Below the pieces are notes generated by a model that searched no databases, was not told the DNA's origin, and was given only the letters and a program-made list of their open reading frames with translations. Made by a program: the position numbers and the translations under genes. From Nitrospirota bacterium (GTDB lineage Bacteria; Nitrospirota; Thermodesulfovibrionia; Thermodesulfovibrionales; JdFR-85), in NCBI GenBank assembly GCA_035873375.1, contig JAYWMQ010000027.1, positions 1-64,000 of the forward strand: 64,000 nucleotides of DNA, written 5' to 3'. Shown here piece by piece: positions 41,388 to 60,853 of this stretch (positions within the stretch are counted from its first letter, which is position 1; each line of letters opens with the position of its first letter).

Positions 41388-42446
41388 ATGAAAAAACAGG
41401 TAATTATTGTAACCATCCTTGTCTTTATTTGTATGCTGCTTGTGTTCTGGTTTCCAAAAGGCAGTGATGCTGTGGTGAAAGGGGATTGTGAGGTCTGCCA
41501 TAGTCTTTATCCCGGAATGATGGAAGCAGCGGCTCCCGGTAAGCCTTTAAGGTATGTCCTTCAGAACTCAATGTGTGTAAATTGTCACTCAAATGCTGAC
41601 AGAAATACCATAAAGATGCTGGGTGGTGCCAGGGTGCCCGTGGTATACAGCAGGGTAGAGCCGGAGAGGCCTTTGTCTGGCGGTAATTTCTATTATGTTA
41701 AGGTTTTTGGTGACAGGAGAGGCCATAATGTGGATGGTATTGCCTCTGTAGATACAAAAAACATGTTTATGCCCCCGGGATATGACCGTTTTTCCGATCC
41801 CTCCACTCTTGGGTTCAACGACAAGAAACCCCTGGCATGTGCGGGCTCCAATGGCTGTCATGGAAACAGGAATATTGAAAACCCGTTTGCCTCTATTCTG
41901 GGGACACATCATTCAGAGGATTTTCCTGTTGACGGAAGCACCACAGCCAGGAGTTACCGCTTTCTGAAGAGAACGGCTGATGTAAAGGGGGTTGCCGGGC
42001 TGGAGGATAAGGATTGGGGCTACACTGCTTCTTCAAAGGAACATAATGAATATACCCCTTCAATCAACCGTCTCTGTGCCGACTGCCATAGCGGCCTTTA
42101 CCGCAGGGATGAGATAGGCAAGGCAAGTCCCTGGTTCAGGCACCCCACAGGGATTGTCCTGCCGAATAGGGGGGAATACATGAAGTATAACCCTGATGTT
42201 CCACCTCCGGCAGACAGTTCCGGCATAAGGATTTACAGCCTCGATGCACCAGTGGCAAGACCGGAAGTTCCTGCTGTTTCCAGTGAGGTGGTGAGGCCCG
42301 GTACTGACGTTGTCATGTGCCTTTCATGCCATGTGGCACACGGGAGCCCTAACGAGTTTATGCTGAGGTGGGATTATGATTCCATCGTCTCAGGGGAGGA
42401 AGGCAGTACCGGTTGCTTTATATGTCATACGGGAAAGGGTGAATAA
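41388..42446 (+). CDS. OmcS-like hexahaem cytochrome, divergent paralogue lacking the bridging His
   Basis: A 352-residue exported cytochrome with five CXXCH motifs and one CX5CH (Cys-Ala-Gly-Ser-Asn-Gly-Cys-His). It shares the whole layout of the OmcS-like family here: haem 2 Cys-Val-Asn-Cys-His, Gly-His-Asn-Val-Asp-Gly, haem 3, Tyr-Arg-Phe-Leu, haem 4 Cys-Ala-Asp-Cys-His with Phe-Arg-His-Pro-Thr, haem 5 Cys-Leu-Ser-Cys-His-Val-Ala-His-Gly-Ser and a terminal haem 6. Unlike the others its first motif reads Cys-Glu-Val-Cys-His-Ser-Leu-Tyr, losing the His that in OmcS reaches into the neighbouring subunit. It may cap or feed filaments rather than polymerise. The N-terminal ~30 residues are a signal peptide. 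Confidence 0.88.
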   Translation: MKKQVIIVTILVFICMLLVFWFPKGSDAVVKGDCEVCHSLYPGMMEAAAPGKPLRYVLQNSMCVNCHSNADRNTIKMLGGARVPVVYSRVEPERPLSGGNFYYVKVFGDRRGHNVDGIASVDTKNMFMPPGYDRFSDPSTLGFNDKKPLACAGSNGCHGNRNIENPFASILGTHHSEDFPVDGSTTARSYRFLKRTADVKGVAGLEDKDWGYTASSKEHNEYTPSINRLCADCHSGLYRRDEIGKASPWFRHPTGIVLPNRGEYMKYNPDVPPPADSSGIRIYSLDAPVARPEVPAVSSEVVRPGTDVVMCLSCHVAHGSPNEFMLRWDYDSIVSGEEGSTGCFICHTGKGE

Positions 42447-43537
42447 TGGGCAGGGGATTGAGGGCAAAGGGCTGGCGGCGAGGTGTTGAGTGGAAGGATT
42501 TCCATGCCCTGTGTTCTGTGCTTTTTGCCCTGTGCTTTATGTTTATCGTCCTCTCTTTTCCCTCAAACATTGATGCCAGGGTAAAGGGGAAGTGCAAGAA
42601 TTGCCACAGCATGCATGCCGGTAAACCCAATCCTGTCCTGACAAAGGGCGGGTGCCTCGGCTGTCATGCCCAGGATCCTTCCGGTACCAGGAATATTATA
42701 GTTAAGGGGAAGACAAGGATCCCGCAGGTAATCCATAACATGGATAACGGAGACCTTGCCGGTGGAAACTTCTATTATGTATCGGATGACTATAACCCTG
42801 ATTATTCAAAAGGACACAATGTGTTGGGAATTTCACTTCAGGAACATCCCCCCATGGATCTGCCCCCGGGCTTTATAGGAAATATTGTAATTCCCGGGGG
42901 GACGGGGCCTGCATACTGGCCACAGCAGCAGCAGCTTACCTGTGCAGGCACGTGGGGTTGTCATGGAAACAGGACTATTGAGAAACCGTTCAAGGCCGTT
43001 TATGGAGCACATCATACCGACGACAGTGTGATTGACGGTTCAACCGTGGGCAGAAGTTACCGCTTTCTTTACGGGATAAAAGGCAAGGAACACAAGGAGT
43101 GGGAATATCAGGCAACCACCGATGACCATAACGGTTACAAGGGTGATACCAGTCACAGCACAATGGACACCATAAGTTACCTCTGTGGTGAATGCCATTC
43201 CAAATTTCATCCAAACCCAAATCTTGGAGGTGAGACAGAGGTTGGTGAGAATGTCTGGCTTAGGCACCCCACCGACATTTCCTTCAGTAATGTGCATGGT
43301 GGGTATGCAGGGTCGGAGTTTCAGGACTATACCAGGTATAGCCTCCAGGCGCCTGTTGCCTATAAAAACCCTACAGGCAGAGAAAATATCGTGGATATGG
43401 ATAGCATAGCCATGTGCCCCTCATGTCACAGGGCACACGCAAGTCCTTATCAGGATATGTTGAGGTGGGATTACAGCAATAATATGTTTAGCCGAGGTGA
43501 CGGCTGCCTTACGTGTCATACGCAGAAGGGGCAATAG
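42446..43537 (+). CDS. OmcS-like hexahaem cytochrome
   Basis: A 363-residue paralogue of the 41388 gene with five CXXCH plus CX5CH (Cys-Ala-Gly-Thr-Trp-Gly-Cys-His). The first motif is Cys-Lys-Asn-Cys-His-Ser-Met-His, keeping the extra His; the haem-5 region Cys-Pro-Ser-Cys-His-Arg-Ala-His-Ala-Ser is very close to OmcS. The ATG overlaps the preceding stop (TAATG), so the two genes are coupled. The unusual N-terminal ~20 residues before the hydrophobic signal segment appear to be read from a repetitive element (GGGCAAAGGG / CCCTGTGCTTT-type), so the signal peptide may have been remade. Confidence 0.88.
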   Translation: MGRGLRAKGWRRGVEWKDFHALCSVLFALCFMFIVLSFPSNIDARVKGKCKNCHSMHAGKPNPVLTKGGCLGCHAQDPSGTRNIIVKGKTRIPQVIHNMDNGDLAGGNFYYVSDDYNPDYSKGHNVLGISLQEHPPMDLPPGFIGNIVIPGGTGPAYWPQQQQLTCAGTWGCHGNRTIEKPFKAVYGAHHTDDSVIDGSTVGRSYRFLYGIKGKEHKEWEYQATTDDHNGYKGDTSHSTMDTISYLCGECHSKFHPNPNLGGETEVGENVWLRHPTDISFSNVHGGYAGSEFQDYTRYSLQAPVAYKNPTGRENIVDMDSIAMCPSCHRAHASPYQDMLRWDYSNNMFSRGDGCLTCHTQKGQ

Positions 43538-43582
43538 TCCGTTGTTATTTGATATTGGCGGAGAGCAGAGCTGGAGTAATTG

Positions 43583-43617
43583 TGTAAAATGTTACATGAA
43601 TTGTGTAGAAAACTACA
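43583..43617. promoter_or_regulatory. Two palindromic candidate enhancer sites for the sigma-54 promoter
   Basis: Two 14-bp palindromes of the same design, TGTAA-AATG-TTACA (43583-43596) and TGTAG-AAAA-CTACA (43604-43617), have centres 21 bp apart, two helical turns. They lie about 180-200 bp upstream of the start predicted from the -24/-12 promoter at 43764. That is the geometry of enhancer sites for an NtrC-family activator. A similar but shorter-spaced TGTA-N5-TACA occurs near 43685. Confidence 0.65.
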
Positions 43618-43763
43618 GAATAGCGGGATTGTCCTGTTAAATTTATAATGCCGGGCTGAAAAATATACTTGACAAAAAAACCTTGTATGTGTTACATTTT
43701 CCTTGCAAAAGCATCAAAAAGTAACTTAGTACGTATACCCCCTATGTATGTAGACAAAGTCTC

Positions 43764-43780
43764 TTGGCATAATTATTGCA
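43764..43780 (+). promoter_or_regulatory. Sigma-54-type (-24/-12) promoter of the main OmcS-like gene
   Basis: TTGGCATAATTATTGCA has GG and GC separated by 10 nt and both consensus halves (TTGGCA, TTGCA). The start would be near 43791, giving a leader of ~140 nt before ATG 43930. The 392-nt gap 43538-43929 holds only this promoter and the palindromes upstream. Confidence 0.8.
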
Positions 43781-43929
43781 TAATTTCATAACAAGCTAAT
43801 AATGCACGGGTTGATGCTCGTGCCATTCTTAAAATACAGAGGGTCGTTCAGGAGCAAAGCCGGTATGTTTCTAAATTCCGATCGGTTTTGTGTATGCTGA
43901 GCAGACCCCAAAAACAAGGGAGGAAAGTG

Positions 43930-45012
43930 ATGAGAAAAACATTATTGATGACAGTGCTCTTGGTATTTCTGTCTGCAATTTTTATTTATTCTTATGCTGA
44001 CGCCAAAGTATCCGGTGTTTGTTCAAGCTGTCACACCATGCACAACAGCCAGGATGGTTCACCGATGACGTTTGACAGTTCGGCTACTCCTAACGGGAAA
44101 TTGCTCCGGGGCAGCTGTGTGGGCTGTCATGCACAGAATACTGCCAGCAATATCGTCAACTCCATACCCCAGGTTTACCATTCAGACCCAACAGACCTTG
44201 CAGCTGGGAATTTTTCGTATGTTGTAACCTCGGACTCCAGCGGACATAATGTCCAGGGCATAGTGACCTCGGCAGATGCCACACTCGTCAATACACCGCC
44301 TGGATATAACAGCGGCTATGACCCGTCATTAACAGGGTTTGATACCACGAGCCGCCTGGTATGCGCAGGGTCTAACGGCTGTCACGGTAACAGGGATTCC
44401 TCTGATGAGTGGACTGCAGTCAGTGGGGGACATCACGGTGATGACTCTATCCTCAAGTACGGCGCCGGTTTTACACTGACCGGGCAGGGGGCTGATGTGC
44501 CCACCAGTTACAGGTTCCTATACAAGATAAAGGGTGCAGAGGACAGCGACTGGCAGGATACAGCGACTGCTACAGACCACAACGAGTATCTGGCGGAAGC
44601 CTATGCCACGAGGGGCACGACGGATTCATGGGCAAATATGAAGGGCACAATAAGTGAGCTCTGCTCTGAATGTCATTCCACGTTCCACCTGGGAGGAACC
44701 AGCGGTATCGGTTCTGCCTCACCGTGGCTGAGACACCCGACAGATGTTGTAATCCCGAATTCAGGAGAGTTTGCTTCCATATCAACAACGTATAGTGATG
44801 AAACCCCGGTAGGAAGGCCTGCGGCATCATTGACAACCGGGTTGACTGCTGCAATAGGGACTGTTGCTGCCGGGACCGACAGGGTTATCTGTCTCTCGTG
44901 TCACAGGGCACATGGTTCGCAATATCCCGATAGTCTGAGATACAGTTATCAGACAACCCTGAATACCGGTGCAGGTTGTTTGAGGTGTCATACACAGAAA
45001 GATGCATACTAA
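43930..45012 (+). CDS. OmcS-like hexahaem cytochrome, candidate nanowire subunit
   Basis: A 360-residue exported cytochrome: signal peptide (cleavage near Tyr-Ala-Asp-Ala), then Cys-Ser-Ser-Cys-His-Thr-Met-His-Asn-Ser (haem 1, same as OmcS except the x residues), haem 2, Gly-His-Asn-Val-Gln-Gly, haem 3 as CX5CH, haem 4 with Leu-Arg-His-Pro-Thr-Asp, haem 5 Cys-Leu-Ser-Cys-His-Arg-Ala-His-Gly-Ser and a C-terminal haem 6. In the OmcS structure (from memory) the second His of the first motif ligates haem 5 of the next subunit; it is kept here. Monocistronic, with its own sigma-54-type promoter and a strong terminator, which fits a highly expressed structural subunit. ATG 43930 follows GGAGG; the upstream extension to 43888 is not used. 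Confidence 0.92.
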   Translation: MRKTLLMTVLLVFLSAIFIYSYADAKVSGVCSSCHTMHNSQDGSPMTFDSSATPNGKLLRGSCVGCHAQNTASNIVNSIPQVYHSDPTDLAAGNFSYVVTSDSSGHNVQGIVTSADATLVNTPPGYNSGYDPSLTGFDTTSRLVCAGSNGCHGNRDSSDEWTAVSGGHHGDDSILKYGAGFTLTGQGADVPTSYRFLYKIKGAEDSDWQDTATATDHNEYLAEAYATRGTTDSWANMKGTISELCSECHSTFHLGGTSGIGSASPWLRHPTDVVIPNSGEFASISTTYSDETPVGRPAASLTTGLTAAIGTVAAGTDRVICLSCHRAHGSQYPDSLRYSYQTTLNTGAGCLRCHTQKDAY

Positions 45013-45054
45013 ATATAATTGAAGAAAAGTTTTCAGGCTAACGGCTGAATTTAC

Positions 45055-45088
45055 AAAAACATGGGTATCTGACGATACCCATGTTTTT
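45055..45088 (+). terminator. Rho-independent terminator after the OmcS-like gene
   Basis: The hairpin AAAAACATGGGTATC with its complement (loop TGAC) has a stem of about 15 bp including the A/T tails and is followed by a run of six T. It isolates the 43930 cytochrome from the following gene. Confidence 0.92.
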
Positions 45089-45194: not shown

Positions 45195-46328
45195 ATGAAG
45201 AGAGTTGTTATGGCAGCCTTTGCAGTCCTTTTGTCTCTGTTTTTTGTTTATACTTTGTCCATGACCAGCAAGGCCGGTGCTGCAGTAACCGGTCAGTGTG
45301 TAAACTGTCATACTATGCACAACAGTCAGGATGGCGGACCTGTGGTTAGAGACGGCCCCGGTGTTGGATGGAATGATTCAGGAGTTTTAACAGGAGGCAC
45401 ACCCTCATCTACGCCCAGGAATAAACTTCTTGTTGCAGGTTGCGTGGGATGCCATTCTTCAAGCAGTAGTCAGACCATTATAAGTAAAGGCAGCAGCAAT
45501 ATACCTATTGTCTTTAACACTACGGTGCCTGTTAACCCACTGGCCGGTGGCAACTTTTACTGGCTTGCCCAGGGGGATGACACCAAGGGCCATAATGTTT
45601 ATGGCATAGCAGGTACAGACAGCAACCTGAGTACAGCGCCCGGTAGAAATCCGGCTGCTTGCTCAGATAGTTGTCACGATACCCTGGCAGCCGCGCCTGA
45701 CGTCAATAACTATTACCGGGGCGGATGTCAGGGCTGTCATGTCTTTACGTCACACCATGATGACGTCAACTATCCATGGTACCGGTTCTTGAAAGGTCAT
45801 GGTATAAGTCCGGGCTTTGCCCTTACCCCTGACCGTAAAGAGCTTAATGACTATGTCAAAGGTGTTGAAGATGATGACTGGGAACAGGAGACCGTTATCG
45901 ACCACAATTATTATAAGGGGACAAACGTAATAACCTATACTAATGACGGGACATCTCTTACGAATTATCAGACTATTACTGCATTCTGTTCCGGCTGCCA
46001 CAGTGTGTTCCATGGCCCGGAGAGGAGTAGTGACGGTATGGGGAGTGCAAGCCCGTGGATAAGACATCCAACCGATATATCCTTGCCTTCAACGGGGGAG
46101 TTCGCGGTATATGATCCTGTTACCAACTATAGTGCTGAGGCCCCTGTAGCCTGGATTGACCCCTCAAGTCCTGTAAGGTCAGGGGCTACAGTGATGTGCC
46201 TTTCGTGCCATAGACCTCATGGCTCGGACCAGTCTGATATGTTGAGGTGGGATTACAGTAATATGTCTACCTGTTGCGGTGGTCAGGATACCGGCTGCGT
46301 TACATGCCATACTGCAAAGAATGACTGA
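45195..46328 (+). CDS. OmcS-like heptahaem cytochrome with CX3CH motif
   Basis: A 377-residue family member with signal peptide and Cys-Val-Asn-Cys-His-Thr-Met-His-Asn-Ser at the first haem. It has six CXXCH and one CX3CH (Cys-Ser-Asp-Ser-Cys-His). The usual CX5CH haem-3 site is replaced by the CX3CH plus an extra CXXCH 30 residues on, giving seven haems. The rest follows the family: His-His-Asp-Asp ... Tyr-Arg-Phe-Leu, Ile-Arg-His-Pro-Thr-Asp, Cys-Leu-Ser-Cys-His-Arg-Pro-His-Gly-Ser. An inserted Cys-Cys pair precedes the last haem. It could form filaments or branch points. Confidence 0.88.
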   Translation: MKRVVMAAFAVLLSLFFVYTLSMTSKAGAAVTGQCVNCHTMHNSQDGGPVVRDGPGVGWNDSGVLTGGTPSSTPRNKLLVAGCVGCHSSSSSQTIISKGSSNIPIVFNTTVPVNPLAGGNFYWLAQGDDTKGHNVYGIAGTDSNLSTAPGRNPAACSDSCHDTLAAAPDVNNYYRGGCQGCHVFTSHHDDVNYPWYRFLKGHGISPGFALTPDRKELNDYVKGVEDDDWEQETVIDHNYYKGTNVITYTNDGTSLTNYQTITAFCSGCHSVFHGPERSSDGMGSASPWIRHPTDISLPSTGEFAVYDPVTNYSAEAPVAWIDPSSPVRSGATVMCLSCHRPHGSDQSDMLRWDYSNMSTCCGGQDTGCVTCHTAKND

Positions 46329-46429: not shown

Positions 46430-47365
46430 ATGTTCCGTATCCTTGTTGTAATTATTTCCTTTGTAATACCCTTTCTTCTCGTCCAGCGCAAGATAGAGGC
46501 CCAGTTACAGGATGTTCCTGTAGTCCATGCATACAGCATTGTGGAAGGAGAAGAAGACAGGTTGTTTTTCCCTTCCTTTGTGTGGGCGGAGCCAGTCAGT
46601 AACGAGGTTTACGTTATTGACGGAAAAAGCAGGATTATCATATATACGTCAGATTTTTTCCCCCTATTTACCCTTGATAGCAGAAAGGGCATTGAGTCAC
46701 CACAGGGGTTGACTCTGGATGCTGAAGGTAATATGTACGTTGCTCAGTCTGCCACAAAGGACAACCCCAGGCACAGGATTTCCGTTTTCAATGCATGTCT
46801 TAAGTGGGTGCGTGATATTTATCTGGAGGGTTTTGAGGGATCCGAGTCGTTTAACCCATATCGTCTGGCCATGGATAAAGCGGGTAATATCTATGTAGCA
46901 GGGTCCTATTTCCCCGGAGTTTTGGTGCTGACTAATCAAGGCCGTTTCCTGGAGGTAATATCACCTGAAGAAGAAGGTAGAAAGGTGAAATTAAATGATG
47001 TGACCCTGGATAAAGCAGGCAGGATATATCTTGTCAGCGAGGAGATGGGTCATATATATGTCTATGATGAAAACAGGAAGTTTCTTTTCAAGTTTGGCCG
47101 CAAAGGTGGGAGCACAGGCAAGTTGAGCCGTCCGATGGCTGTCGGTGTAGATAATCGAAACGGAAGGATGTATGTGGTAGATTATATGCGTCATACTGTT
47201 TCTGTGTATGATAAGGACGGTAAATATCTGTTTGAATTTGGAGGCCTGGGCCTGTCCGCGGGATGGTTTCAGTTCCCCAGGGATATATCAGTCGATTCAA
47301 CAGGCAGAATACTTATTGCCGATACCTTTAATAACAGGGTGGAAGTGTATCAGCCTAAAGAATAG
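46430..47365 (+). CDS. NHL-repeat beta-propeller protein, exported
   Basis: A 311-residue protein with an N-terminal signal peptide and about six NHL repeats (e.g. Pro-Gln-Gly-Leu-Thr-Leu-Asp-Ala-Glu-Gly-Asn-Met-Tyr-Val-Ala, and a last repeat ending Ile-Ala-Asp-Thr-Phe-Asn-Asn-Arg-Val), together a six-bladed propeller. NHL proteins are a recurring neighbour of omcS-type genes in Geobacter (from memory). It has no haem motif. A scaffold or chaperone role for cytochrome filaments at the cell surface is inferred from position. ATG 46430 has AGGAGG. Confidence 0.85.
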   Translation: MFRILVVIISFVIPFLLVQRKIEAQLQDVPVVHAYSIVEGEEDRLFFPSFVWAEPVSNEVYVIDGKSRIIIYTSDFFPLFTLDSRKGIESPQGLTLDAEGNMYVAQSATKDNPRHRISVFNACLKWVRDIYLEGFEGSESFNPYRLAMDKAGNIYVAGSYFPGVLVLTNQGRFLEVISPEEEGRKVKLNDVTLDKAGRIYLVSEEMGHIYVYDENRKFLFKFGRKGGSTGKLSRPMAVGVDNRNGRMYVVDYMRHTVSVYDKDGKYLFEFGGLGLSAGWFQFPRDISVDSTGRILIADTFNNRVEVYQPKE

Positions 47366-47501
47366 CAGCGGGTATGAGGTGGAGGAAAGGTCTTTTCAGG
47401 TCTGAAAAAATTAAGGGATGGATATAGATAAGCAGGAATTATCCACAGATTGTGTTGATAGCGAATACAACAAAAAGATTCTGTCAGAACACGGGGAGTT
47501 T

Positions 47502-49103
47502 ATGTCGAACAATGTACAGCTTTATAAAGACACTGCAGTTTTAGTAATGATCTCCGTACTCTTAGTCCTTTGCTCGGTTCTCCTTTTAACGGGATGCACT
47601 ACAATTAAAGGACAGCAAGAGGTTTCAAGGCATTCTCAGGGACAGATTGACCTCTTTCTGAAGGGGACTGATGATGCTTCCGTGGATATTTCATTTGATC
47701 TGGCTGCTGTTGATATTATGGCAGAGGACGGTACCTATAGAGAGTTAATGAGTGCCCCTCTGAATATAAATTCCCTTGCCATGAGGGGCCGTCAGATACT
47801 CCTGGCCGAAAAAACTCTACCGGAGGGCAGATATAAAAAACTCCGGTTTGTTGTAAGCCGGGCATTGATCAGGAGAAAAGGCGTGATTGCACGTTTAGCC
47901 TTGCCTCCCGAGGGAATAGAGATACCTGTAAGTATTACGATATATAAAGACCAGAACACATCATTGTTCCTGACCTGGGATGCAGATGCATCTGTTGTTG
48001 ATAAATACCTGTTTAAACCTGACTTTTCTGTTAAGGGTCAGGTCCCGGAACTGAGCAGCCTCCTTGTTTATGTTACCAATGAGGATTCGGATAATGTCTC
48101 CGTTATTAACAGACAATTAGGTGAGGTAGTGGCAACTGTAAGGGTGGGAAGAAAACCCAGGGGTATTGCTGCAGGCCTGAGAAGGGAGAGGTTGAGGGTT
48201 TATGTGGCCAATTCAGGTTCTAACAGCATTTCAGTGATTGACCCCACCACGAATAAGGTGGAACAGGAGATACCGATCCGGTTTGGCAGTGAGCCGGAGG
48301 GGATAGCCGTGGCAAGGGGACCTTCTGGAGAAGAACTCATATTTGTGGCCGATTATGGCTCTGACACTGTATCCGTTGTTGATGCCACAACCTATCAGGA
48401 GATAGACAAGGTAGATGTTGGGAATGGTCCGATAGCAGTGGCAGTAGACCCCCCGGCGGAGACCGTCACGGCGTCGCGGTTCCTCAGCCTTGAGGATGTT
48501 AACATCTTGAGGAATTACCGTGAAAGATATTTTAATGTGTATGTAGTTAATAAGGATTCCAGGGATGTCTCGGTGCTGAGGATGGACCTGCAGAGAAACA
48601 GGTTTGAAGAAGTTGTCAGGTTAAGTGTAGAATGGAACCCGGTGGCGCTTGCAGTAGACTATCAGAGAGGGAAGGTCTATGTAGCTAATTATGGTTCTGA
48701 CAGGCTCTCGGTCATAGATATCATAGAGGTTATTAAAGGAAATGAGGCAGGCGCTGTCAGCGATATCAGTTCTGTGGGTACCTCTGTCACAGGAGTTGTT
48801 GTTGACCCGACCTTTGACAGGATTTATCTGTTGAGGGAGGTTCCCGGCGAGATAATGATTATCAGACCTTTTCTGGAGAATTACTATACTGCGGATACGG
48901 TAATGCCCCTGGTAACAGGTACAATACCTGTTGGAACTTCACCGAGGTCCATGATTATGGACCCCGAGGCCAGAAATCTCTATGTAGTTAACAGGGAGTC
49001 TGATAATGTCTCGGTAGTGGATAAGACTGCAAGAAAAGTAGAACGGGTTATCCCTGTGGGTAAAAACCCGTATGGCATAGCAATGTTTCCGTATTATGAG
49101 TGA
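47502..49103 (+). CDS. Lipoprotein with DUF4382-like domain and YVTN-type beta-propeller
   Basis: A 533-residue lipoprotein: lipobox Leu-Leu-Thr-Gly-Cys (Cys32 from ATG 47502), an N-terminal ~150-residue beta domain resembling DUF4382, then a propeller of YVTN-like repeats (Val-Tyr-Val-Ala-Asn-Ser-Gly-Ser-Asn-Ser-Ile-Ser-Val-Ile-Asp and similar, about seven). The frame opens at 47418 but that start lacks a ribosome-binding site and would put 60 residues before the lipobox. Outer-membrane or surface location likely; partner of the NHL protein upstream. Function unknown. Confidence 0.78.
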   Translation: MSNNVQLYKDTAVLVMISVLLVLCSVLLLTGCTTIKGQQEVSRHSQGQIDLFLKGTDDASVDISFDLAAVDIMAEDGTYRELMSAPLNINSLAMRGRQILLAEKTLPEGRYKKLRFVVSRALIRRKGVIARLALPPEGIEIPVSITIYKDQNTSLFLTWDADASVVDKYLFKPDFSVKGQVPELSSLLVYVTNEDSDNVSVINRQLGEVVATVRVGRKPRGIAAGLRRERLRVYVANSGSNSISVIDPTTNKVEQEIPIRFGSEPEGIAVARGPSGEELIFVADYGSDTVSVVDATTYQEIDKVDVGNGPIAVAVDPPAETVTASRFLSLEDVNILRNYRERYFNVYVVNKDSRDVSVLRMDLQRNRFEEVVRLSVEWNPVALAVDYQRGKVYVANYGSDRLSVIDIIEVIKGNEAGAVSDISSVGTSVTGVVVDPTFDRIYLLREVPGEIMIIRPFLENYYTADTVMPLVTGTIPVGTSPRSMIMDPEARNLYVVNRESDNVSVVDKTARKVERVIPVGKNPYGIAMFPYYE

Positions 49104-52168: not shown

Positions 52169-52252
52169 AAGTGAATGCTTAATTGAGAACAGGATAACCA
52201 TTTATCATTTGCCATTGACTATTGACTATTGAAGAGTAAAAGGAGAAACGAT

Positions 52253-52834
52253 ATGGACCTGGTGAAGAAATATGCCCTGACAGGTATGCTCTGTCTATTG
52301 CTCCTTGGCGCAGGATGTCGTAGCAGCATGCCTTCATTTCATATCCGTCAGGATGTGGATTTCGGTTTTATAAAACGGGTGGCGGTATTGCCTTTAAATA
52401 ATCTGACCAATGAGAGATTTGCCGCCGAAGCAGTAAGACAGGTGCTTATAAGTGAACTGCTGGCCTCGGGTCTTGTTGATGTGGTGGTTCCCGGAGAGGT
52501 AATGGCTGCAATTGACCGTCTGGGGATTAAGTCTGTCTCATCCCTGAATGCTGAACAGATAAAGGCTTTAGGTAAGGCCCTTGGTGTTCAGGCTGTTATT
52601 TTCGGTTCGGTTGAGCAGTTCGGAATGGTCAGGATGGGAAATATCTCTGCACCAAACGTGACAATTACCCTGATGATGGCGGATACAGGTTCAGGGAGCA
52701 TTATCTGGTCGGTTACAAGCACAGGTGTGGGGGGCGGTTTTATGGCCAGACATTTTGGTGCGAGGACAGAGACCATGAGCGAGACACTGTTGAGGGTAGT
52801 AAAAGATGCTATCCGGACACTTGCTAAATACTGA
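52253..52834 (+). CDS. GNA1162/CsgG-like lipoprotein, copy 2
   Basis: A 193-residue lipoprotein (lipobox Leu-Gly-Ala-Gly-Cys) paralogous to the gene at 51572, with Arg-Val-Ala-Val-Leu-Pro-Leu-Asn-Asn-Leu-Thr-Asn and Gly-Ser-Ile-Ile-Trp-Ser-Val. ATG 52253 has AAGGAG at 8 nt; the longer frame from TTG 52229 is not used. The C-terminal Gly-Gly-Gly-Phe-Met-Ala-Arg-His-Phe-Gly matches copy 1 (Phe-Trp-Thr-Arg-His-Phe-Gly). The pair may form a hetero-oligomer at the outer membrane. Confidence 0.78.
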   Translation: MDLVKKYALTGMLCLLLLGAGCRSSMPSFHIRQDVDFGFIKRVAVLPLNNLTNERFAAEAVRQVLISELLASGLVDVVVPGEVMAAIDRLGIKSVSSLNAEQIKALGKALGVQAVIFGSVEQFGMVRMGNISAPNVTITLMMADTGSGSIIWSVTSTGVGGGFMARHFGARTETMSETLLRVVKDAIRTLAKY

Positions 52835-52882
52835 GAATAGTCTGTTTATATCATAGTTTTAAAGATTGTCGACATGTGACAA

Positions 52883-54475
52883 ATGAATAAAAAAAAACTG
52901 AACAACGTGGCCGTGAGACGAAACATACTTTGTAGCCCTAACCGATTGGCGTCTTCTTTGCTAATCGTTATCTTCTCGTTGTTCTTTATTACCAATATTT
53001 GCTATGCAGCCCAATCACCCCGTGGAGAGGGGAGAGAGCTGAAGGAAAGGATAGCCCTCTTTCCTCTTGTGAATCTAAGCGAGGACAGAGATGCCCTGAG
53101 GTACGTTATGCCGGTATTGAGAACCCGGTTGGAAGACAAAGGGTTTGACGTAGTGGATGAGGATAGCCTCAACAGGTTCCTGCTTAAAGAGAGAGTCAGG
53201 GCTACCGGGTACATTTCAAAGGATATGGCCAGGAAGATAGGGAAGGAATTGAATGTAAAGGCCGTTTTGCTCGGTTCCGTTAATCTGTTTTTGCGGGGAG
53301 AAAATCCAGGGATTGGTTTATCAGCCCGCCTGGTTGATTCATCCACCGGCCTTATCCTGTGGGCTGATTATGCCTCTGCTACCGGAGACGATTTCACTAA
53401 AATCCTGGGTTTGGGTAGAATAAAGACCATGGATAAGCTGCTTCCCAGGGTTGCGGACAGATTGCTTGCCTCTTTCACCACCATGCCGTCCCGTAAAGAG
53501 ACGGAACATACTTACAGAATTGCCGTGATGCCGTTTCGCAATAACAGTGGAGTCAGAGATGCCGGTATAATAGCTACGTACATGTTTTTAGTGGAATTAT
53601 TCAAGAATCCTGTTTTTGAACCGGTGGAGTTCGGAGAAGTCAGAAGAGCAGTAGTGGATTTAAGGGTCAGGGAGAGGGGGGAACTGGATTACAGGTATGT
53701 GAAGGCCCTTTCAAAGTCCCTGTGGGTGGATGGCTTTTTAGTCGGGACTGTGGAGCTTTACTCTGACGGACTAAATACTGCCTCTCCACCCGAGGTCTCT
53801 ATAGCCGCCAGAATAGTAGATGCCGGTAAAAACAGGCTCCTGTGGTGCGATAGCTCTCAACTAAGGGGTGATGACAATATAATTGTCCTCGACTGGGGAA
53901 GGATAAGATCTGTGGATAAAGTGGCTTTTAGGGTGGTCTCAAAATTAGTAAAGAGGGCTGAGAAAGTATGTGGGGGACCAGTTCCTGTTGTTTCAGAGCC
54001 ACCTCCTAAAACAAAGAAAGTTGTTCCTGAAATACCTTTGCCTGCAAATTTACAGAAAGGGTCTGAAACTTATCGGGGACCTGAAATAGACCAACGGAGC
54101 CCCCCCATTACAAGAGAGTTCCGGACGACGATATATTTTGATTACAGAAGTGCAGAAATCGGAAAGGATGCGTACAGTATCTTACTCGGATTTATTGATT
54201 TCCTGAATGCCAGGGAGATAACAGGTATTACAATTGAGGGTCATTCATGTGCGCATGGCCCTAAGCGGTTCAACTATGAAATTAGCAGGAGAAGGGCACT
54301 TGCTGTGAGGAATTTTCTGATCAAACATGGAGATGTAGCAGAAGACAGGATAATAATCAAATATTTCGGCGAAGACGGTCTTCTTTATCCTGAGATACCT
54401 ACAAAAGAGAATATAAATGACCCTGAGGTGAAAAAAAACAGGAGGGTGCTTGTCACGGTAACGTACAGGCGATGA
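52883..54475 (+). CDS. Tandem CsgG/GNA1162-like domains fused to OmpA-type peptidoglycan-binding domain
   Basis: A 530-residue exported protein. After a signal peptide (about residues 23-42) come two copies of the domain seen in the two genes upstream (about 55-205 and 210-370), a Pro-rich linker (about 375-410), and an OmpA C-terminal domain (about 415-530) with Ile-Tyr-Phe-Asp-Tyr, Ile-Glu-Gly-His-Ser-Cys, Ile-Ser-Arg-Arg-Arg-Ala-Leu-Ala-Val and Lys-Lys-Asn-Arg-Arg-Val. It would anchor the lipoprotein assembly to peptidoglycan. I know of no described protein with this exact order. It overlaps the next gene by 4 nt. Confidence 0.8.
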   Translation: MNKKKLNNVAVRRNILCSPNRLASSLLIVIFSLFFITNICYAAQSPRGEGRELKERIALFPLVNLSEDRDALRYVMPVLRTRLEDKGFDVVDEDSLNRFLLKERVRATGYISKDMARKIGKELNVKAVLLGSVNLFLRGENPGIGLSARLVDSSTGLILWADYASATGDDFTKILGLGRIKTMDKLLPRVADRLLASFTTMPSRKETEHTYRIAVMPFRNNSGVRDAGIIATYMFLVELFKNPVFEPVEFGEVRRAVVDLRVRERGELDYRYVKALSKSLWVDGFLVGTVELYSDGLNTASPPEVSIAARIVDAGKNRLLWCDSSQLRGDDNIIVLDWGRIRSVDKVAFRVVSKLVKRAEKVCGGPVPVVSEPPPKTKKVVPEIPLPANLQKGSETYRGPEIDQRSPPITREFRTTIYFDYRSAEIGKDAYSILLGFIDFLNAREITGITIEGHSCAHGPKRFNYEISRRRALAVRNFLIKHGDVAEDRIIIKYFGEDGLLYPEIPTKENINDPEVKKNRRVLVTVTYRR

Positions 54476-56220
54476 AGATGATAAAAAACGGAGATAGCAA
54501 GATGGCACAAACGCAGTCAATAGTCACCGGTCAACAGTCGGGGGTTAAGTCCGGCAGCTCCTCTGGTACAGGAAAAACCACAGACTTGAGCTCGGGAATC
54601 TTCCCGGTTGTTGTTCTCTGCTTACTGTTTGCTTTTGTGGGTGGTTGTGCATCACTTCTGCAGAGGGGAGATGTAACGGCAAAGGGAAAAATATTAGCGG
54701 TTGTAGATGGCGAGCCCATTACCGAAGAAGATTTGAAATATTCGCTGCAGATAGCCCATCGCAGGGAAGACCTTTCCTCTGCGGGGAATTTAAGTCTGGC
54801 AGAGTATGTGCAAAAACTGATTGATGATATGTTGATTATTGAGGAAGCCCGCCGTATGGGCATGGAGCAGGACCCTCAGGTTCAACAGGCCGTTAAGGCG
54901 TATATCCTGAGGGAGTCGGTCGTGAAGCTTTATGACGAGGAGATTTCGCAGAAGGTCTCAATATCGGATGAGGATATTGTAAGTTATTACAGGAAGAACT
55001 ATGAGAGGTTTTCGCTTGGCATTATTGAGGTAAGTTCAGAGGAAGAGGCCGGTAATATAGCAGGACAACTAAAGAAGGGAGCTGATTTCAGTGACCTTGC
55101 CCGGAAGTACTCTACCCATCGTTCCGGGGAAAACGGGGGAGAGATTGTTCTTACACGAAGGTCCATGCCGGCTTATATTGCTGAAACTATTGCCGGGCTC
55201 AGCCCGGGTGAGTTGAGTGATATTCTGAAGATACGGGATAAATATTATATAGTAATGCTGCTCAGCAGGAAAGAGGCGCCTGATGAAGAACTCAAAAATG
55301 TCCGAAAAGAGATAGAAAAGGTTATCAGGAAACAAAGGGAAAAAGAGCGTGCTGATGAATATCTGGAATATCTTCGTGAACACGCTGTCATTAAGATTAA
55401 TAAGGATATTCTTTCTGCTATCAGTCCGGATAAAGGAGACGAGGAAGCAGTGGAATGGTCAAAGGATAAAAGGGTAGTGGCAGAGGTGAATGGTTCGGTC
55501 CTTACAGCAGGTGAGTTTGTCGCAATGGCCACTGCTTACAGGGGTAAATCAAATGAATATATCCTTAATAGCTGGATTGACCGTAAGATAGTTGACCAGG
55601 AGGCGCTTGGCCGGCGTTACGATACTACTCCCGATTTGAAGAAAAAGATAGAGCGCTATGAGAATCAGCTTTTAAAGAAGGTGTTCATAAATAAAGCAAT
55701 TATCCCGAAGATCGAAGTTTCAGATAAGAGATTGAAAGACTACTATCTGAAACACCGGGGAAAATTTGCCGGCCCCGACAGGTTTAGAGTTCAGCAGATT
55801 ACGGTGAAGACCATGGATGAGGCCAGGAACCTATTGAGCAGCCTGCAGGATGGTGCTGATTTTTCATGGCTGGCAAAGAATAAGTCAATTGATTCTGCAG
55901 GTCCAAAAGGTGGAGAGGTTGGATGGCTTACCATGCAGAAGTTTCCAGGGCCTGTAAGGGAGTTTGTGGCTACACTGAAGACAGGAGAGGTAAGCCCGAT
56001 TTTCAAGGTTGATTCATCCTATAGAATAATCCGGCTGCAGGGAAAGGTTGATGGGGAAGTCAGGAGGTTCGAAGAAGTAAGAGATGCTGTTTACAAGGCG
56101 TATTTTAAAGAAGAGTTCAATGCCCTCCGGGACGAGTTTGTGGTACAGTTGAGGGCAAAGGCACGTATAAAGATATATGATGAGGCAGTAAAGTCAATAG
56201 AGGAAGGATTGCAGAAATAG
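54472..56220 (+). CDS. Lipoprotein peptidyl-prolyl isomerase with two parvulin/SurA-type modules
   Basis: A 582-residue lipoprotein (lipobox Val-Gly-Gly-Cys near 61) after a long Ser/Gly-rich N-tail. Two modules follow, each a SurA-like helical N-domain (Ile-Leu-Ala-Val-Val-Asp-Gly-Glu-Pro-Ile-Thr and Val-Val-Ala-Glu-Val-Asn-Gly-Ser-Val-Leu-Thr) plus a PpiC parvulin domain (Lys-Lys-Gly-Ala-Asp-Phe-Ser-Asp-Leu-Ala ... Gly-Gly-Glu, and Gln-Asp-Gly-Ala-Asp-Phe-Ser-Trp-Leu-Ala ... Gly-Gly-Glu-Val-Gly-Trp). Isomerases occur beside nanowire cytochromes in Geobacter (from memory), fitting a folding role for Pro-rich haem proteins or the beta-barrel. ATG 54502 with GGAG is an alternative start. Confidence 0.85.
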   Translation: MKMIKNGDSKMAQTQSIVTGQQSGVKSGSSSGTGKTTDLSSGIFPVVVLCLLFAFVGGCASLLQRGDVTAKGKILAVVDGEPITEEDLKYSLQIAHRREDLSSAGNLSLAEYVQKLIDDMLIIEEARRMGMEQDPQVQQAVKAYILRESVVKLYDEEISQKVSISDEDIVSYYRKNYERFSLGIIEVSSEEEAGNIAGQLKKGADFSDLARKYSTHRSGENGGEIVLTRRSMPAYIAETIAGLSPGELSDILKIRDKYYIVMLLSRKEAPDEELKNVRKEIEKVIRKQREKERADEYLEYLREHAVIKINKDILSAISPDKGDEEAVEWSKDKRVVAEVNGSVLTAGEFVAMATAYRGKSNEYILNSWIDRKIVDQEALGRRYDTTPDLKKKIERYENQLLKKVFINKAIIPKIEVSDKRLKDYYLKHRGKFAGPDRFRVQQITVKTMDEARNLLSSLQDGADFSWLAKNKSIDSAGPKGGEVGWLTMQKFPGPVREFVATLKTGEVSPIFKVDSSYRIIRLQGKVDGEVRRFEEVRDAVYKAYFKEEFNALRDEFVVQLRAKARIKIYDEAVKSIEEGLQK

Positions 56221-56302
56221 TTTGTCCTTGACAAACGAAACCGGTCAGGGATAAATTATCCAAACCGGGTAAACGGGAAACCCCGGATAGAGGTTGGCAA
56301 TT

Positions 56303-58273
56303 GTGAGAGGAATGATTAACTCCAAAGGAAAGAATATCTTAAAAGTCCTCCTTCTGTTTTTTATCTTAAGCCTCATCTACGCATGCGTTCCTGAAGATAC
56401 AGCAAGAAGGCGGGGTTTTGAACCAAAACCCTGTCTGGATTGTCACAAGGAGAAGCTGAATGAATTTCAGAAGAAGTATGTGCATTCTCCGGTAAGCAAA
56501 CAGGATTGTGAGGCCTGCCACCTTCGTCATGGAAGGCTTGCCGTTAAATCCTTCAAGGAGAGGGAGGAGCGAAAGCTCTGCTTTACCTGTCACCGGAAGA
56601 TGGCCTCGGATATGGATAAGTTATCCAATGTGCATACCGCCCTGAAGCAGGGCAGGTGTGTCCCCTGCCATAACCCCCATGCATCTGAAAACAGGTTTCT
56701 TCAGAAAGAGACGGGCAGTGAGCAGTGCTTTACCTGTCATGACAGGGTTCCTTTTATGAGGGCTAATCGCCATGAGCCCCTTTCAGACGGATGTCTTACA
56801 TGCCATGCAGCCCATGGTTCTCAATATAAGGACAATCTCATAAAGGATGAAGCGGATCTCTGCCGCTCGTGTCATGACCCTGCTACGGGCGGTTTCAGGA
56901 AGGCACATAAGAATTATCCGGTTCAACAGGGCAAATGTACAGGTTGTCATAACCCTCACAGCTCAACAAATGATAAATTGCTCAGGAAATCAGTCCATGT
57001 TCCTCTGGAACTCGGGCAATGCAGTTCCTGTCATAAACCATCGGAAGGCCCGGATCCACTCGGTGTTATTGCTCAGGATGCCAAGCTATGCTATAGCTGT
57101 CACAAGAAGGAAGAAAAGGATTTTAAGACAGCTTACAGGCATCCTCCTGCTGGTAAAGGTAAATGTCTTGACTGTCACAGTCCTCATGCCTCGGATTATC
57201 CGAAAATTACCCTTATGGATGAAAAGGAGCTTTGTTTAAAGTGTCATGCCGACAAGCCGAAGATTGACGTGACTAACCTGCATGCACCAATAAAGGAGGA
57301 GGGCTGCACAGTCTGTCACGACCCACATGGCTCTGAGAACCCTTTTTATCTGAATGCACCTGAGGGGCAGATATGCCTTACATGTCATGCTGATATGAAA
57401 AAGGAGTTAAAAGAAATATCCACGCATAAGCCGTTCTCCGAGCTTCAATGTACAAAATGCCATGACCCTCATGGTACGGATACCCCGGTTATGCTTAAGG
57501 CCGTGCGAGCCCGGTTATGCTATAGCTGTCATCAAAAGGAGGAGAAGGAGTTTTTTAAGACCTATATCCATACACCTGTGAATAAAGGAGAGTGTCTCTC
57601 CTGCCATAAGGCGCATGCATCTGAAAATAAGGGTTTGCTGAGCAATTCACCGGATCAGCTCTGCCTTGATTGCCATGATGGTATGTTGCCGGATGTTAAG
57701 GCAAAAGAGATGCATCCTCCATTCAGGGACCGGGCCTGCCTGACATGCCATGCCCCCCATGCCAGTGATTACACGGCAAATACACTTACGCCCATGGCGG
57801 AGCTCTGTTACAAGTGTCATAAAAGCACAAAGGCTGCACTGAAAGGCAGCAAAAACAGGCACCTGCCCGTGGATGAGGGGAAATGTACGGCCTGTCACAG
57901 CCCGCATGGGACCAGGGTTGAGTATCAACTCTTAAGCCGTCCCTCGGAGCTCTGTCTTTCCTGTCATGAAAGGGTAGTGACTACCAGTGCCAGAAAAGGG
58001 CATATAGATATGGAAAAGGGGGACTGTTTGAGTTGTCATCGCTCTCATTATTCTGAATCAAAGGACTTGCTGAATGCCAAAGACCCGGCGTTATGCCTTA
58101 AATGCCACTCGACAGATACGGAGAGACTGTTGAAGGTACACAGAAAACCTTTGGCCCAAATCAGGCAGTGTCTGAGCTGTCATGAACCCCATGTAACAGA
58201 AAAGCCGGGGATGCTTAAAAAGATAAAGCATGATCCATTTGCCAGGAGGGACTGTGAAGCCTGTCATAAATGA
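56303..58273 (+). CDS. 26-haem c-type cytochrome, probable lipoprotein
   Basis: A 656-residue protein with 26 CXXCH motifs, one per ~25 residues, largely of the paired type (Cys-His-Asn-Pro-His-Ala-Ser, Cys-His-Asp-Pro-His-Gly). The signal segment ends Leu-Ile-Tyr-Ala-Cys, close to a lipobox, so it is probably lipid-anchored. I chose GTG 56303 because GAGG lies 9 nt upstream; TTG 56294 and ATG 56312 are badly spaced. Such long haem chains span periplasm or outer membrane; with the beta-barrel upstream it could make a conduit. It overlaps the 16-haem gene. Confidence 0.92.
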   Translation: MRGMINSKGKNILKVLLLFFILSLIYACVPEDTARRRGFEPKPCLDCHKEKLNEFQKKYVHSPVSKQDCEACHLRHGRLAVKSFKEREERKLCFTCHRKMASDMDKLSNVHTALKQGRCVPCHNPHASENRFLQKETGSEQCFTCHDRVPFMRANRHEPLSDGCLTCHAAHGSQYKDNLIKDEADLCRSCHDPATGGFRKAHKNYPVQQGKCTGCHNPHSSTNDKLLRKSVHVPLELGQCSSCHKPSEGPDPLGVIAQDAKLCYSCHKKEEKDFKTAYRHPPAGKGKCLDCHSPHASDYPKITLMDEKELCLKCHADKPKIDVTNLHAPIKEEGCTVCHDPHGSENPFYLNAPEGQICLTCHADMKKELKEISTHKPFSELQCTKCHDPHGTDTPVMLKAVRARLCYSCHQKEEKEFFKTYIHTPVNKGECLSCHKAHASENKGLLSNSPDQLCLDCHDGMLPDVKAKEMHPPFRDRACLTCHAPHASDYTANTLTPMAELCYKCHKSTKAALKGSKNRHLPVDEGKCTACHSPHGTRVEYQLLSRPSELCLSCHERVVTTSARKGHIDMEKGDCLSCHRSHYSESKDLLNAKDPALCLKCHSTDTERLLKVHRKPLAQIRQCLSCHEPHVTEKPGMLKKIKHDPFARRDCEACHK

Positions 58274-59537
58274 CAGAAGATTCCTGTCAGTAACCTTAAT
58301 CGCTGTAAGCTTCATGCTGATAACGTTTATCTTGTCAGCCCTGAACAGTAATGCCTATGCCCGGGCTGACCTTAAAACGAGTGTGCCTGAGCTTTGCTAT
58401 CAGTGTCATGTAAAGCTTGAGGAAGGCCTGTCTGACAGGTATGTCCATTTCCCGTTTAAACAGGGTATGTGCATTTCATGTCATAGCTCACATGTAAGTG
58501 ATACAAAGGGCCTGATAAAGGATGATATCAATTCCCTGTGTCTGAGCTGTCATAAAGGTATCAGAAAACTTATCCGGAAATCCAGCTTGCACGGTGCCCT
58601 TAAAAGGGGCGTGTGTACGGATTGTCACACACCCCATAGCGGAAAAAATAAATACCTCCTGGTCAGCGAGGAAAAGAGACTCTGCTGGAATTGCCACGAG
58701 AATCTTAAAGGGCAACTTGACAAGCCTGAAGTGCACGCAGTTTTTAAGGAAGGAAAATGTTCATCATGCCATGATGCTCACGCATCTTCGGAGGAGAATC
58801 AGTTGCTTGCCGCCCCTGCCAGGCTGTGCAAAAGCTGTCATGCTCCACGGTGTAAGGCGGGCGGGGTCTCTATAAGTTATATCACAAAAGGAATGAATTG
58901 CACCGAATGTCACACAGGACATACCTCTGATACCAAAGGTCTCCTCGGTCCTTATGGTCATACGGCCTTTCTGAAAAAGGATTGTGAACAATGCCATAAA
59001 CCTTTTGTTGCTAATGGGAAGATAACCACTAAAAGAGAGGGCGAGGCCTTGTGCCTTGGTTGCCATAAAAAGGTCATCGCAACACTCAAAGGTGCGGATG
59101 TCCACGGCGCCAATATGAAGAATGTCTGCACCATGTGTCATAATCCTCATGCATCGAAAAAGGAGAACCTGACAGTAAATGAATCAGGCGTTTGTCTCAA
59201 CTGCCATGAGAAGACAGAAAAAAGGACTGCCCTGATGGAGAAGACATTGAAGTCCATCCGCTGTGCTCCTGTCAAGGACAGGAAGTGTTTTGAATGTCAT
59301 GTGCCGCTGCACTCAGGTCGGCCTCTTTATTTCAGGACAGATGATATTGTAACCTGTTCCAGTTGCCATGAATCACAGCATGAAATCACCCATCCTTTAG
59401 GTGCCGGCGTCATAGACCCGCGTAACGGTAAGTCGCTTACCTGCATTTCATGTCATAGTATGCATTCTGCCAAGGCTGATTTTATGCTTACCTTTGATAG
59501 AAAGAGGCAGCTCTGTATCCAATGTCATAAAAAGTAA
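58254..59537 (+). CDS. 16-haem c-type cytochrome
   Basis: A 427-residue exported cytochrome with 16 CXXCH motifs, related in style to the 26-haem protein (Cys-His-Ser-Ser-His, Cys-His-Thr-Pro-His-Ser, Cys-His-Asp-Ala-His-Ala). The signal peptide ends near Asn-Ala-Tyr-Ala. GTG 58254 follows AGGAGGG inside the 3' end of the 26-haem gene; the frame also contains ATG 58230 without a site. Translational coupling suggests equal amounts and a joint complex of 42 haems. Confidence 0.9.
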   Translation: MKPVINDRRFLSVTLIAVSFMLITFILSALNSNAYARADLKTSVPELCYQCHVKLEEGLSDRYVHFPFKQGMCISCHSSHVSDTKGLIKDDINSLCLSCHKGIRKLIRKSSLHGALKRGVCTDCHTPHSGKNKYLLVSEEKRLCWNCHENLKGQLDKPEVHAVFKEGKCSSCHDAHASSEENQLLAAPARLCKSCHAPRCKAGGVSISYITKGMNCTECHTGHTSDTKGLLGPYGHTAFLKKDCEQCHKPFVANGKITTKREGEALCLGCHKKVIATLKGADVHGANMKNVCTMCHNPHASKKENLTVNESGVCLNCHEKTEKRTALMEKTLKSIRCAPVKDRKCFECHVPLHSGRPLYFRTDDIVTCSSCHESQHEITHPLGAGVIDPRNGKSLTCISCHSMHSAKADFMLTFDRKRQLCIQCHKK

Positions 59538-59553
59538 AATGATGCCGAAGGTG

Positions 59554-59739
59554 TGTGCTGAATTACACTGTTTAGGCGTTTTTGCAGTTAGATAAAAAAA
59601 CGGTTTCAGAATTATATGGATGATTGAAGTCGTTAAAGGAGACCGTGTTTTTAGGCAATCTCGGCTTGCATAATTTACAGAGAGGCAGAATATTGCCCTG
59701 CAATCTTTATACCGTGAGTATTGTGGTATAGCTATTGCA
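59554..59739 (+). promoter_or_regulatory. Sigma-54-type promoter and candidate enhancer of second nanowire-like gene
   Basis: At 59722-59739 TGTGGTATAGCTATTGCA has GG and GC 10 nt apart; the -12 half is consensus, the -24 half has TGGTA instead of TGGCA. Start near 59750. At 59554-59567 TGTG-CTGAAT-TACA is a one-mismatch version of the palindromes upstream of the 43930 gene, at a similar distance (about -190). The rest of 59538-59770 shows no gene. Confidence 0.6.
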
Positions 59740-59770
59740 TGTAATATTTCAGGAGTGTTTTGCAAAACCA

Positions 59771-60853
59771 ATGAAAAAAGGGAACCATACACTAATTTGC
59801 CTTACTATTTTGCTGGTGCTGATACTGGTTGGCGGAGTGCGGGCAGAGGTTAGCGGTGTATGCAGTAACTGTCACACCATGCACAACAGCCAGGGAGGTG
59901 TTCCGATGAACTATGACAGTTCTGTCACCCCCAACCGGAGACTGCTCCGCGGGGATTGTATAGGTTGTCATGCACAGAATCGCAGCACTAATATCTTCAA
60001 CACTATTCCCCAGGTCTACCATTCTGATCCTACAGACCTTGCAGGAGGGAATTTTTCGTATGTTTTACTTGCTGACTCGAGCGGACATAATGTCCAGGGC
60101 ATAGTGACCTCGGCGGATGTCATACTCGGCAATACACCCCCCGGATATAACAGCACCTATGATCCCTCCTTAACAGGGTTCAGTACTGTTAGCCGTCTGG
60201 TGTGTGCAGGGTCTAACGGCTGTCACGGTAACAGGGATTCATCCGATGAGTGGGCCGCAGTCAGCGGGGGACATCACGGTGATGACTCAATACTCAAGTA
60301 CGGCGCCGGTTTTACACTGACCGGGCAGGGGGCCGATGTGCCCACCAGTTACAGGTTCCTATACAAGATAAAGGGTGCTGAGGATAGTGACTGGCAGGAT
60401 ACTTGGAGTACTACTGACCACAACGAATACCTGGCTGAAGTCTATGCAACAAGGGGCACGACGGATTCATGGGCAAATATGAAGGGCACTATCAGTGAGC
60501 TCTGCTCTGAATGTCATTCCACGTTCCATCTGGGTGGCAGCAGTGGAATCGGTTCTGCTTCACCGTGGCTGAGGCACCCGACAGATGTGATAATCCCGAA
60601 TTCAGGAGAGTTTGTCTCCATGTCGACTACCTATACGGCTACAGTGCCGGTTGGAAGACCGGCGGCATCACTGACAAGCGGGTTGACCGCTGCAATAGGG
60701 ACAGTTGCCGCCGGGACCGACAGGGTCATGTGTCTCTCCTGTCACAGGGCCCATGGCTCTCCCTACTACAAGATGCTGAGGTGGAACTACAAGAGCACCA
60801 TTCTTCCGACAGCCCTGTATGGGTGTAACGTTTGCCATACATCCAGGAACTAA
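59771..60853 (+). CDS. OmcS-like hexahaem cytochrome, near-duplicate of the 43930 gene
   Basis: A 360-residue protein, same length as the 43930 product and almost identical over most of it, including five CXXCH and the CX5CH motif, Cys-Ser-Asn-Cys-His-Thr-Met-His-Asn-Ser at the first haem and Cys-Leu-Ser-Cys-His-Arg-Ala-His-Gly-Ser at the fifth. DNA is near-identical over about 100 bp (60281-60380 against 44441-44540), so duplication or gene conversion is recent. The signal peptide and C-terminus differ more. ATG 59771 is preferred because the longer frame from 59735 starts inside the promoter. It could be an alternative filament subunit for other conditions. Confidence 0.92.
   Translation: MKKGNHTLICLTILLVLILVGGVRAEVSGVCSNCHTMHNSQGGVPMNYDSSVTPNRRLLRGDCIGCHAQNRSTNIFNTIPQVYHSDPTDLAGGNFSYVLLADSSGHNVQGIVTSADVILGNTPPGYNSTYDPSLTGFSTVSRLVCAGSNGCHGNRDSSDEWAAVSGGHHGDDSILKYGAGFTLTGQGADVPTSYRFLYKIKGAEDSDWQDTWSTTDHNEYLAEVYATRGTTDSWANMKGTISELCSECHSTFHLGGSSGIGSASPWLRHPTDVIIPNSGEFVSMSTTYTATVPVGRPAASLTSGLTAAIGTVAAGTDRVMCLSCHRAHGSPYYKMLRWNYKSTILPTALYGCNVCHTSRN

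Follow-up and report, generated by a model that had tools for sequence, protein, structure and literature searches.

Does this locus encode an OmcS-type nanowire system outside Geobacter?

Can bacteria outside Geobacter build extracellular nanowires from OmcS-like cytochromes, and do they carry the machinery to assemble them? The question is raised by a 64,000-nucleotide stretch of a Nitrospirota genome (assembly GCA_035873375.1, contig JAYWMQ010000027.1, positions 1 to 64,000; hereafter 'the window'), in which a preliminary description made from the sequence alone had proposed an array of five OmcS-like cytochromes. The genome, of 2.67 Mb and 99% complete, has the window as its contig 27. We consider it fairly likely that the locus encodes extracellular cytochrome nanowires of the OmcS type along with the machinery that assembles them; this is the best reading because the OmcS-like family flanks a complete, co-linear counterpart of the osc cluster of Geobacter.

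The five OmcS-like genes, named here by their first nucleotide, are intact ORFs (open reading frames) at the places given in the preliminary description, all on the + strand, with ATG starts for 43930 and 59771. 'Array' suits the four genes in tandem (41388-46328), but the fifth (59771) lies 13.4 kb downstream, beyond the osc-type block. No further full-length family member was found in the host genome.

41388..42446, + strand: OmcS-like cytochrome, class A; five CXXCH motifs and one CX5CH; no histidine at the position of OmcS H16 (histidine 16) (alignment, tree)
42446..43537, + strand: OmcS-like cytochrome, class B; five CXXCH and one CX5CH; CHSMH at haem 1 (alignment, tree)
43930..45012, + strand: OmcS-like cytochrome, class C; five CXXCH and one CX5CH; CHTMHNS at haem 1, CHRAHGS at haem 5 (profile, AlphaFold2)
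45195..46328, + strand: OmcS-like cytochrome, class D; six CXXCH and one CX3CH, i.e. seven motifs; haem-3 region rebuilt (alignment, tree)
59771..60853, + strand: OmcS-like cytochrome, second copy of class C, 78% identical to 43930 (alignment, tree)

Homology to OmcS

The five products form one paralogous family, 42-78% identical to the 43930 product, and are homologous to OmcS. In an hmmsearch against the solved structures, the five-protein profile matched OmcS over the greater part of its length (E 8.4e-14); the next-best entry had an E-value of 0.4. An hhalign comparison of 122 family members with 37 OmcS-group sequences gave a probability of 99.9% (E 9.5e-35 for this single comparison) and aligned the CHTMHNS, GHN, RHP and CLSCHRAH motifs of the family with those of OmcS orthologues. 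An AlphaFold2 model, calculated for the mature 43930 product only, had a predicted local distance difference test score (pLDDT) of 85.7 and a predicted template modelling score of 0.86, and its single Foldseek match in the PDB was OmcS (6ef8), with a Z-score of 15.0 and a root-mean-square deviation of 3.8 Å over 265 aligned residues at 27% identity. The class C protein is thus predicted to have the OmcS fold. The OmcS likeness proposed in the preliminary description is borne out by the sequence profile, the profile-profile comparison and the predicted fold. OmcE (7tfs) and OmcZ appeared neither among the profile matches (E up to 1) nor among those of Foldseek, an absence that does not amount to proof.

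In the phylogenetic tree, the OmcS-group sequences and the 122 family members form separate groups, each with 100% support, and all 122 members fall outside the OmcS/OmcT clade. Judged by this tree, the proteins are a sister family to OmcS, not OmcS itself. As G. sulfurreducens was absent from the genomes searched (best OmcS match 72%), near relatives stood in for it. Malonomonas rubra carries both the OmcS-clade and the CX5CH-family types; it has two osc-like loci (L114 and L115), one with OmcS-clade genes and the other with the CX5CH family.

Haem motifs and a predicted sixth haem

The preliminary description had ascribed the haem-flanking motifs of OmcS to all five proteins. This holds for GHN(V) and for RHP after haem 4. 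CxxCH-TMHNS at haem 1 is found in three proteins (43930, 45195 and 59771), the variants being CHSMHAG in 42446 and CHSLYPG, devoid of the histidine, in 41388. Similarly, CxxCH-RAH-(A/G)S at haem 5 is present in 42446, 43930 and 59771, with CHRPHGS in 45195 and CHVAHGS in 41388; hence, only 43930 and 59771 have the complete set. The CxxCHxxH pattern occurs 58 times in the genome and its reversed form once, with 38 of the 58 at 40-62 kb of the window. Given this excess and the OmcS profile match, the motif resemblance is not due to chance. A generic signal from doubled CXXCH motifs was also considered and rejected: the profile of the multihaem family of 60911 (see below) does not retrieve OmcS. 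The serine codons of CHTMHNS in these genes are AGC or AGT.

In sequence order, four proteins have six haem-binding sites (five CXXCH and one CX5CH) and 45195 has seven motifs. The haem-3 site of the four is CAGSNGCH or CAGTWGCH, and therefore a plain CXXCH count gives five haems, not six. Its two cysteines and histidine are invariant in the alignment of the 122 relatives, all except 20 of which have the CX5CH form. OmcS-like proteins published as 'pentahaem' (PMC9539880) may therefore have six haems. The sequences indicate that a plain CXXCH count overlooks the sixth haem in this widespread family.

A co-linear osc-type assembly cluster

The strongest functional evidence, missed in the preliminary description, is the block between the fourth and fifth OmcS-like genes. 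In G. sulfurreducens, maturation and secretion of OmcS have been tied to the GSU2500-GSU2493 block (Shen et al. 2025, cited in PMC12977616); according to PMC13194489, which cites the same study, OscH is proposed to act in folding, OscE/F/G in secretion and OscD in morphology. Each gene at 47418-59537 has a homologue, in unchanged order, in the block next to omcS in the Geobacter-type loci L113, L118 and L120, where a beta-propeller, a 750-residue outer-membrane protein, a lipoprotein, an OscG-like protein, a PpiC chaperone and 26- and 15/16-haem cytochromes follow one another. All seven osc-type genes D to J are co-linear with these loci; the cytochrome sizes match (26 and 15-16 motifs), and the profile E-values of the non-haem parts range from 8.9e-42 to 9.6e-79. 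We assigned the Osc letters from gene order and from the roles reported in the citing papers.

46430..47365, + strand: NHL-repeat beta-propeller (Pfam NHL; profile match to L113:18188-19138, E 1.7e-39)
47418..49103, + strand: OscD counterpart, YncE-like beta-propeller with lipobox (profile match to L113:13711-15183, E 3.3e-77)
49249..51516, + strand: OscE counterpart, putative outer-membrane protein of 755 residues, probably a barrel (matches in L113, L118, L120 and L114, E 2.6e-45 to 4.3e-58)
51572..52168, + strand: OscF counterpart, lipoprotein, copy 1 (GNA1162-like below the cut-off; profile match to L113:10769-11383, E 8.9e-42)
52229..52834, + strand: OscF counterpart, lipoprotein, copy 2, LpoB-like (Pfam LpoB; phmmer E 1.2e-25 to L113:10769-11383)
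52883..54475, + strand: OscG counterpart with C-terminal OmpA domain (Pfam OmpA; profile match to L113:9619-10809, E 3.2e-61)
54472..56220, + strand: OscH counterpart, SurA/PpiC-type prolyl isomerase chaperone with lipobox (Pfam Rotamase; profile match to L113:7917-9701, E 4.5e-77)
56294..58273, + strand: OscI counterpart, 26-CXXCH cytochrome (26 motifs; phmmer E 3.4e-141 to L113:5901-7871, also 26 motifs)
58230..59537, + strand: OscJ counterpart, 16-CXXCH cytochrome (16 motifs; phmmer E 1.9e-58 to L113:4601-6004, 15 motifs)

The 755-residue protein has no Pfam match, but its four matches occupy the equivalent gene position. Homologues of the NHL propeller also flank the omcS loci of the Geobacter relatives L113, L118 and L120. 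Among the 30 longest loci from other organisms (at least 19 kb), 25 have at least three osc-type genes with the OmcS-like family. The assignment to the OmcS-like family and to the osc kind of cluster is well supported. The two OscF-type lipoproteins (51572-52834) follow an F-F-G order seen in many Nitrospirota loci; Geobacter relatives have a single F.

Paralogue classes and a candidate bridging histidine

Four well-separated paralogue classes (A to D) were found in the tree. They differ at a position of potential structural importance, histidine 15 of the family alignment, which corresponds to OmcS H16. In OmcS, H16 reportedly binds haem 5 of an adjacent subunit (Wang et al. 2019). OmcS H332 is the haem-5 CXXCH histidine in the PDB chain numbering, which is consistent with this role. 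The position is a histidine in 112 of the 122 members, including 42446, 43930, 45195 and 59771, and a tyrosine in 41388. Nine sequences without this histidine, 41388 and those of L001, L070, L064, L054, L080, L048, L071 and L073, make up the class A clade (100% support in the Shimodaira-Hasegawa-like approximate likelihood ratio test), with tyrosine or phenylalanine in every member. Class A genes occur in Nitrospirota and one Nitrospinota assembly; within the limits of the contigs, each opens its array of OmcS-like genes. A separate loss of histidine 15 is found in the class B clade (L048:3614-4561).

Classes A, B and C are all under purifying selection, and the ratio of nonsynonymous to synonymous substitution rates for class A (0.04-0.09) led us to reject the idea of a decaying gene. 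Class D is missing from the nearest relatives, L002 and L003, and was therefore either gained recently or lost in them. In near relatives, some OmcS-like genes are split into overlapping ORFs (L002:4192-5285, L003:2231-3222 and L004:9956-11067), probably through frameshifts in the metagenome assemblies.

A recurrent eight-haem partner

The second class C gene is directly followed by an additional cytochrome gene.

60911..62218, + strand: eight-CXXCH cytochrome paired with the OmcS-like gene 59771 (recurrent pairing; fusion in L050)

This arrangement recurs, with 20 cases of an eight-haem gene directly after an OmcS-like gene, and in L050:3261-5444 an OmcS-like domain and an eight-haem domain are naturally fused in a single ORF; both observations link the eight-haem protein to the OmcS-like subunit. 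The C-terminal residue is Phe in 17 of the 19 members of the eight-haem family, often as (R/K)xTF or xLF, and one of the two others is cut by a contig end. This ending resembles a C-terminal signal read by a secretion or outer-membrane machine. The 60911 profile matched a single chain of 6r2q (E 7e-6) that carries an unrelated molecule name, and cytochromes at weaker scores; the AlphaFold2 model of 60911 is of low confidence (pLDDT 36.5).

A model for the wire and its alternatives

The wire system is probably functional. We infer a path of secretion, polymerisation and conduction as follows. The OmcS-like subunits (classes B and C, probably D) would leave the cytoplasm through Sec and receive their six or seven haems in the periplasm. 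The OscH counterpart, a PpiC lipoprotein, would help them to fold, and the OscE/F/G counterparts would take them across the outer membrane. The subunits would then polymerise end to end, each haem 5 receiving its sixth ligand from the haem-1 region (CHTMH) of the adjoining subunit. Electrons from the periplasm would reach the wire through the 26-, 16- and 19-haem cytochromes. A place at an end of the wire is a reasonable, though speculative, suggestion for the class A paralogue (41388). In a more elaborate scheme, which is speculative and to which we give little credence, labour is divided within one wire: classes B, C and D would form the shaft; class A, which without the bridging histidine could sit at one end only, would start or cap the filament; and the eight-haem protein, which in one lineage is fused to an OmcS-like subunit, would anchor or tip it. 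In L113, L118 and L120, the osc block likewise has OmcS paralogues without H16 next to it, which fits this scheme. We know of no encoded end subunit described for any cytochrome nanowire. The scheme offers a testable idea on how cytochrome wires start, stop or attach, a matter listed as unresolved in a review (PMC12307469).

Several points weigh against the nanowire reading. According to PMC12977616, wire formation is known for OmcS alone among its G. sulfurreducens paralogues, and homology therefore does not prove polymerisation. A long branch separates the family from the OmcS clade, and there are eight conserved candidate distal histidines for six haems, so that the pairing is not fixed by counting. 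The five proteins could instead be monomeric or short-oligomer surface cytochromes that act as terminal reductases without long filaments, on a porin-cytochrome conduit formed by the 755-residue outer-membrane protein and the 26- and 16-haem proteins. Large multihaem proteins beside an outer-membrane protein fit such a conduit, OetABI-type porin:cytochrome conduits adjoin OmcS-like genes in the partners of anaerobic methanotrophic archaea (ANME; PMC10553843), and PMC12977616 mentions several OmcS relatives without a demonstrated filament. We nevertheless find this explanation quite unlikely, given the predicted OmcS fold, the conserved H16 equivalent and the reported part of the Geobacter counterparts in folding and secreting OmcS and in shaping the wires (Shen et al. 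2025, cited in PMC13194489).

Two further questions arise within the preferred reading of an OmcS-type wire system. One is whether the paralogues are alternative full wires, each polymerising alone under different conditions, as the preliminary description had suggested. The separation into four classes, the purifying selection on A, B and C, and the context-dependent roles of the Geobacter OmcS, OmcE and OmcZ wires (PMC12307469) are in its favour. It is only one reading, and to us a rather unlikely one: the two class C copies are near-duplicates, every class A member, first in its array, lacks the bridging histidine, and the haem-3 region of 45195 is altered, so some of the proteins may rather be specialised subunits, which a single assembly cluster common to all fits at least as well. 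The other is whether the missing histidine of class A has any structural meaning. If the haem-1 CHxxH histidine were not an inter-subunit ligand in this family, its loss would be of no consequence, and six other histidine positions, kept in at least 121 of the 122 members, would suffice for six haems within one subunit. The aligned OmcS residue is H16 itself, with its reported bridging role, and we regard this possibility as somewhat doubtful. The available passages of PMC6584659 assign 11 of the 12 haem ligands of OmcS to its own subunit and one, on haem 505, to the neighbour, without naming the residue.

Host and neighbouring genes

Among named relatives, those closest to the 43930 product come from Nitrospirota metagenome assemblies and bacterium BMS3Bbin07 (87-93% protein identity). 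As the genome also contains dsrA, the host is likely a sulfur-metabolising Nitrospirota. The family is patchy in this phylum, being found in 24 of the 296 species genomes sampled. Its cultured carriers include Malonomonas rubra, Thermodesulfatator autotrophicus and Thermodesulfobacterium hydrogeniphilum. Directly upstream of the array is the gene of another multihaem protein.

39826..41274, + strand: 19-CXXCH cytochrome (19 motifs; Pfam Paired_CXXCH_1)

A similar gene precedes the array in L002, L054, L064 and L070, and its product is possibly an electron carrier feeding the array. A gene for a RACo-like corrinoid activation protein (2Fe-2S and ASKHA domains; 35832-37709, - strand) lies near the locus, and one for a DsrE/DsrF-like protein (62845-63198, - strand) just past it.

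Comparison with known systems

The host is not a Geobacter, as the preliminary description had supposed, but OmcS-like proteins have already been published elsewhere, in the sulfate-reducing partners of ANME (PMC10553843), Ca. T. torris (PMC9539880) and Desulfurivibrio (PMC12545173). The locus is thus an addition to a growing number of OmcS-type cases outside Geobacter, not the first. It places a complete set of OmcS-type wire and assembly-cluster genes in a sulfur-metabolising, dsrA-bearing Nitrospirota lineage.

With OmcS of G. sulfurreducens (6ef8, 6nef), the family shares six haem sites in equal order, the CHTMHNS, GHN, RHP and CLSCHRAH flanks and the predicted fold, and with OmcS, OmcT, OmcJ and OscC (GSU2501) the arrangement of tandem paralogues beside osc genes. 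In contrast, it is only ~27% identical to OmcS, its haem-3 site is CX5CH rather than CXXCH, it lacks the N-terminal FH, and class D has seven motifs. Relative to GSU2500-GSU2493, the counterparts of D, E, F, G, H, I and J are in the same order, with 26- and ~16-haem cytochromes, GSU2495 having 26 motifs like the OscI counterpart 56294. However, OscF is doubled here, OscG has an OmpA domain, and the last OmcS-like gene is followed by that of the eight-haem cytochrome.

DA_402 of Desulfurivibrio alkaliphilus (PMC12545173), likened here by its published description, is an OmcS homologue with CX2-5CH motifs and a DALI score of 14.3 against OmcS, similar to the 15.0 of the 43930 model, but its host belongs to the Desulfobacterota; a Desulfurivibrionaceae relative in our set (L011) is 48% identical to the 43930 product. 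The OmcS-like cytochromes of the ANME partners (PMC10553843) and of Ca. T. torris/Ca. Desulfofervidus (PMC9539880), also likened by description, may belong here too, as the family has members in Desulfofervidaceae (L049 and L077) and in an EthSRB1 genome (L028). The published proteins were called pentahaem by CXXCH count, whereas the invariant haem-3 site of the family suggests a sixth haem.

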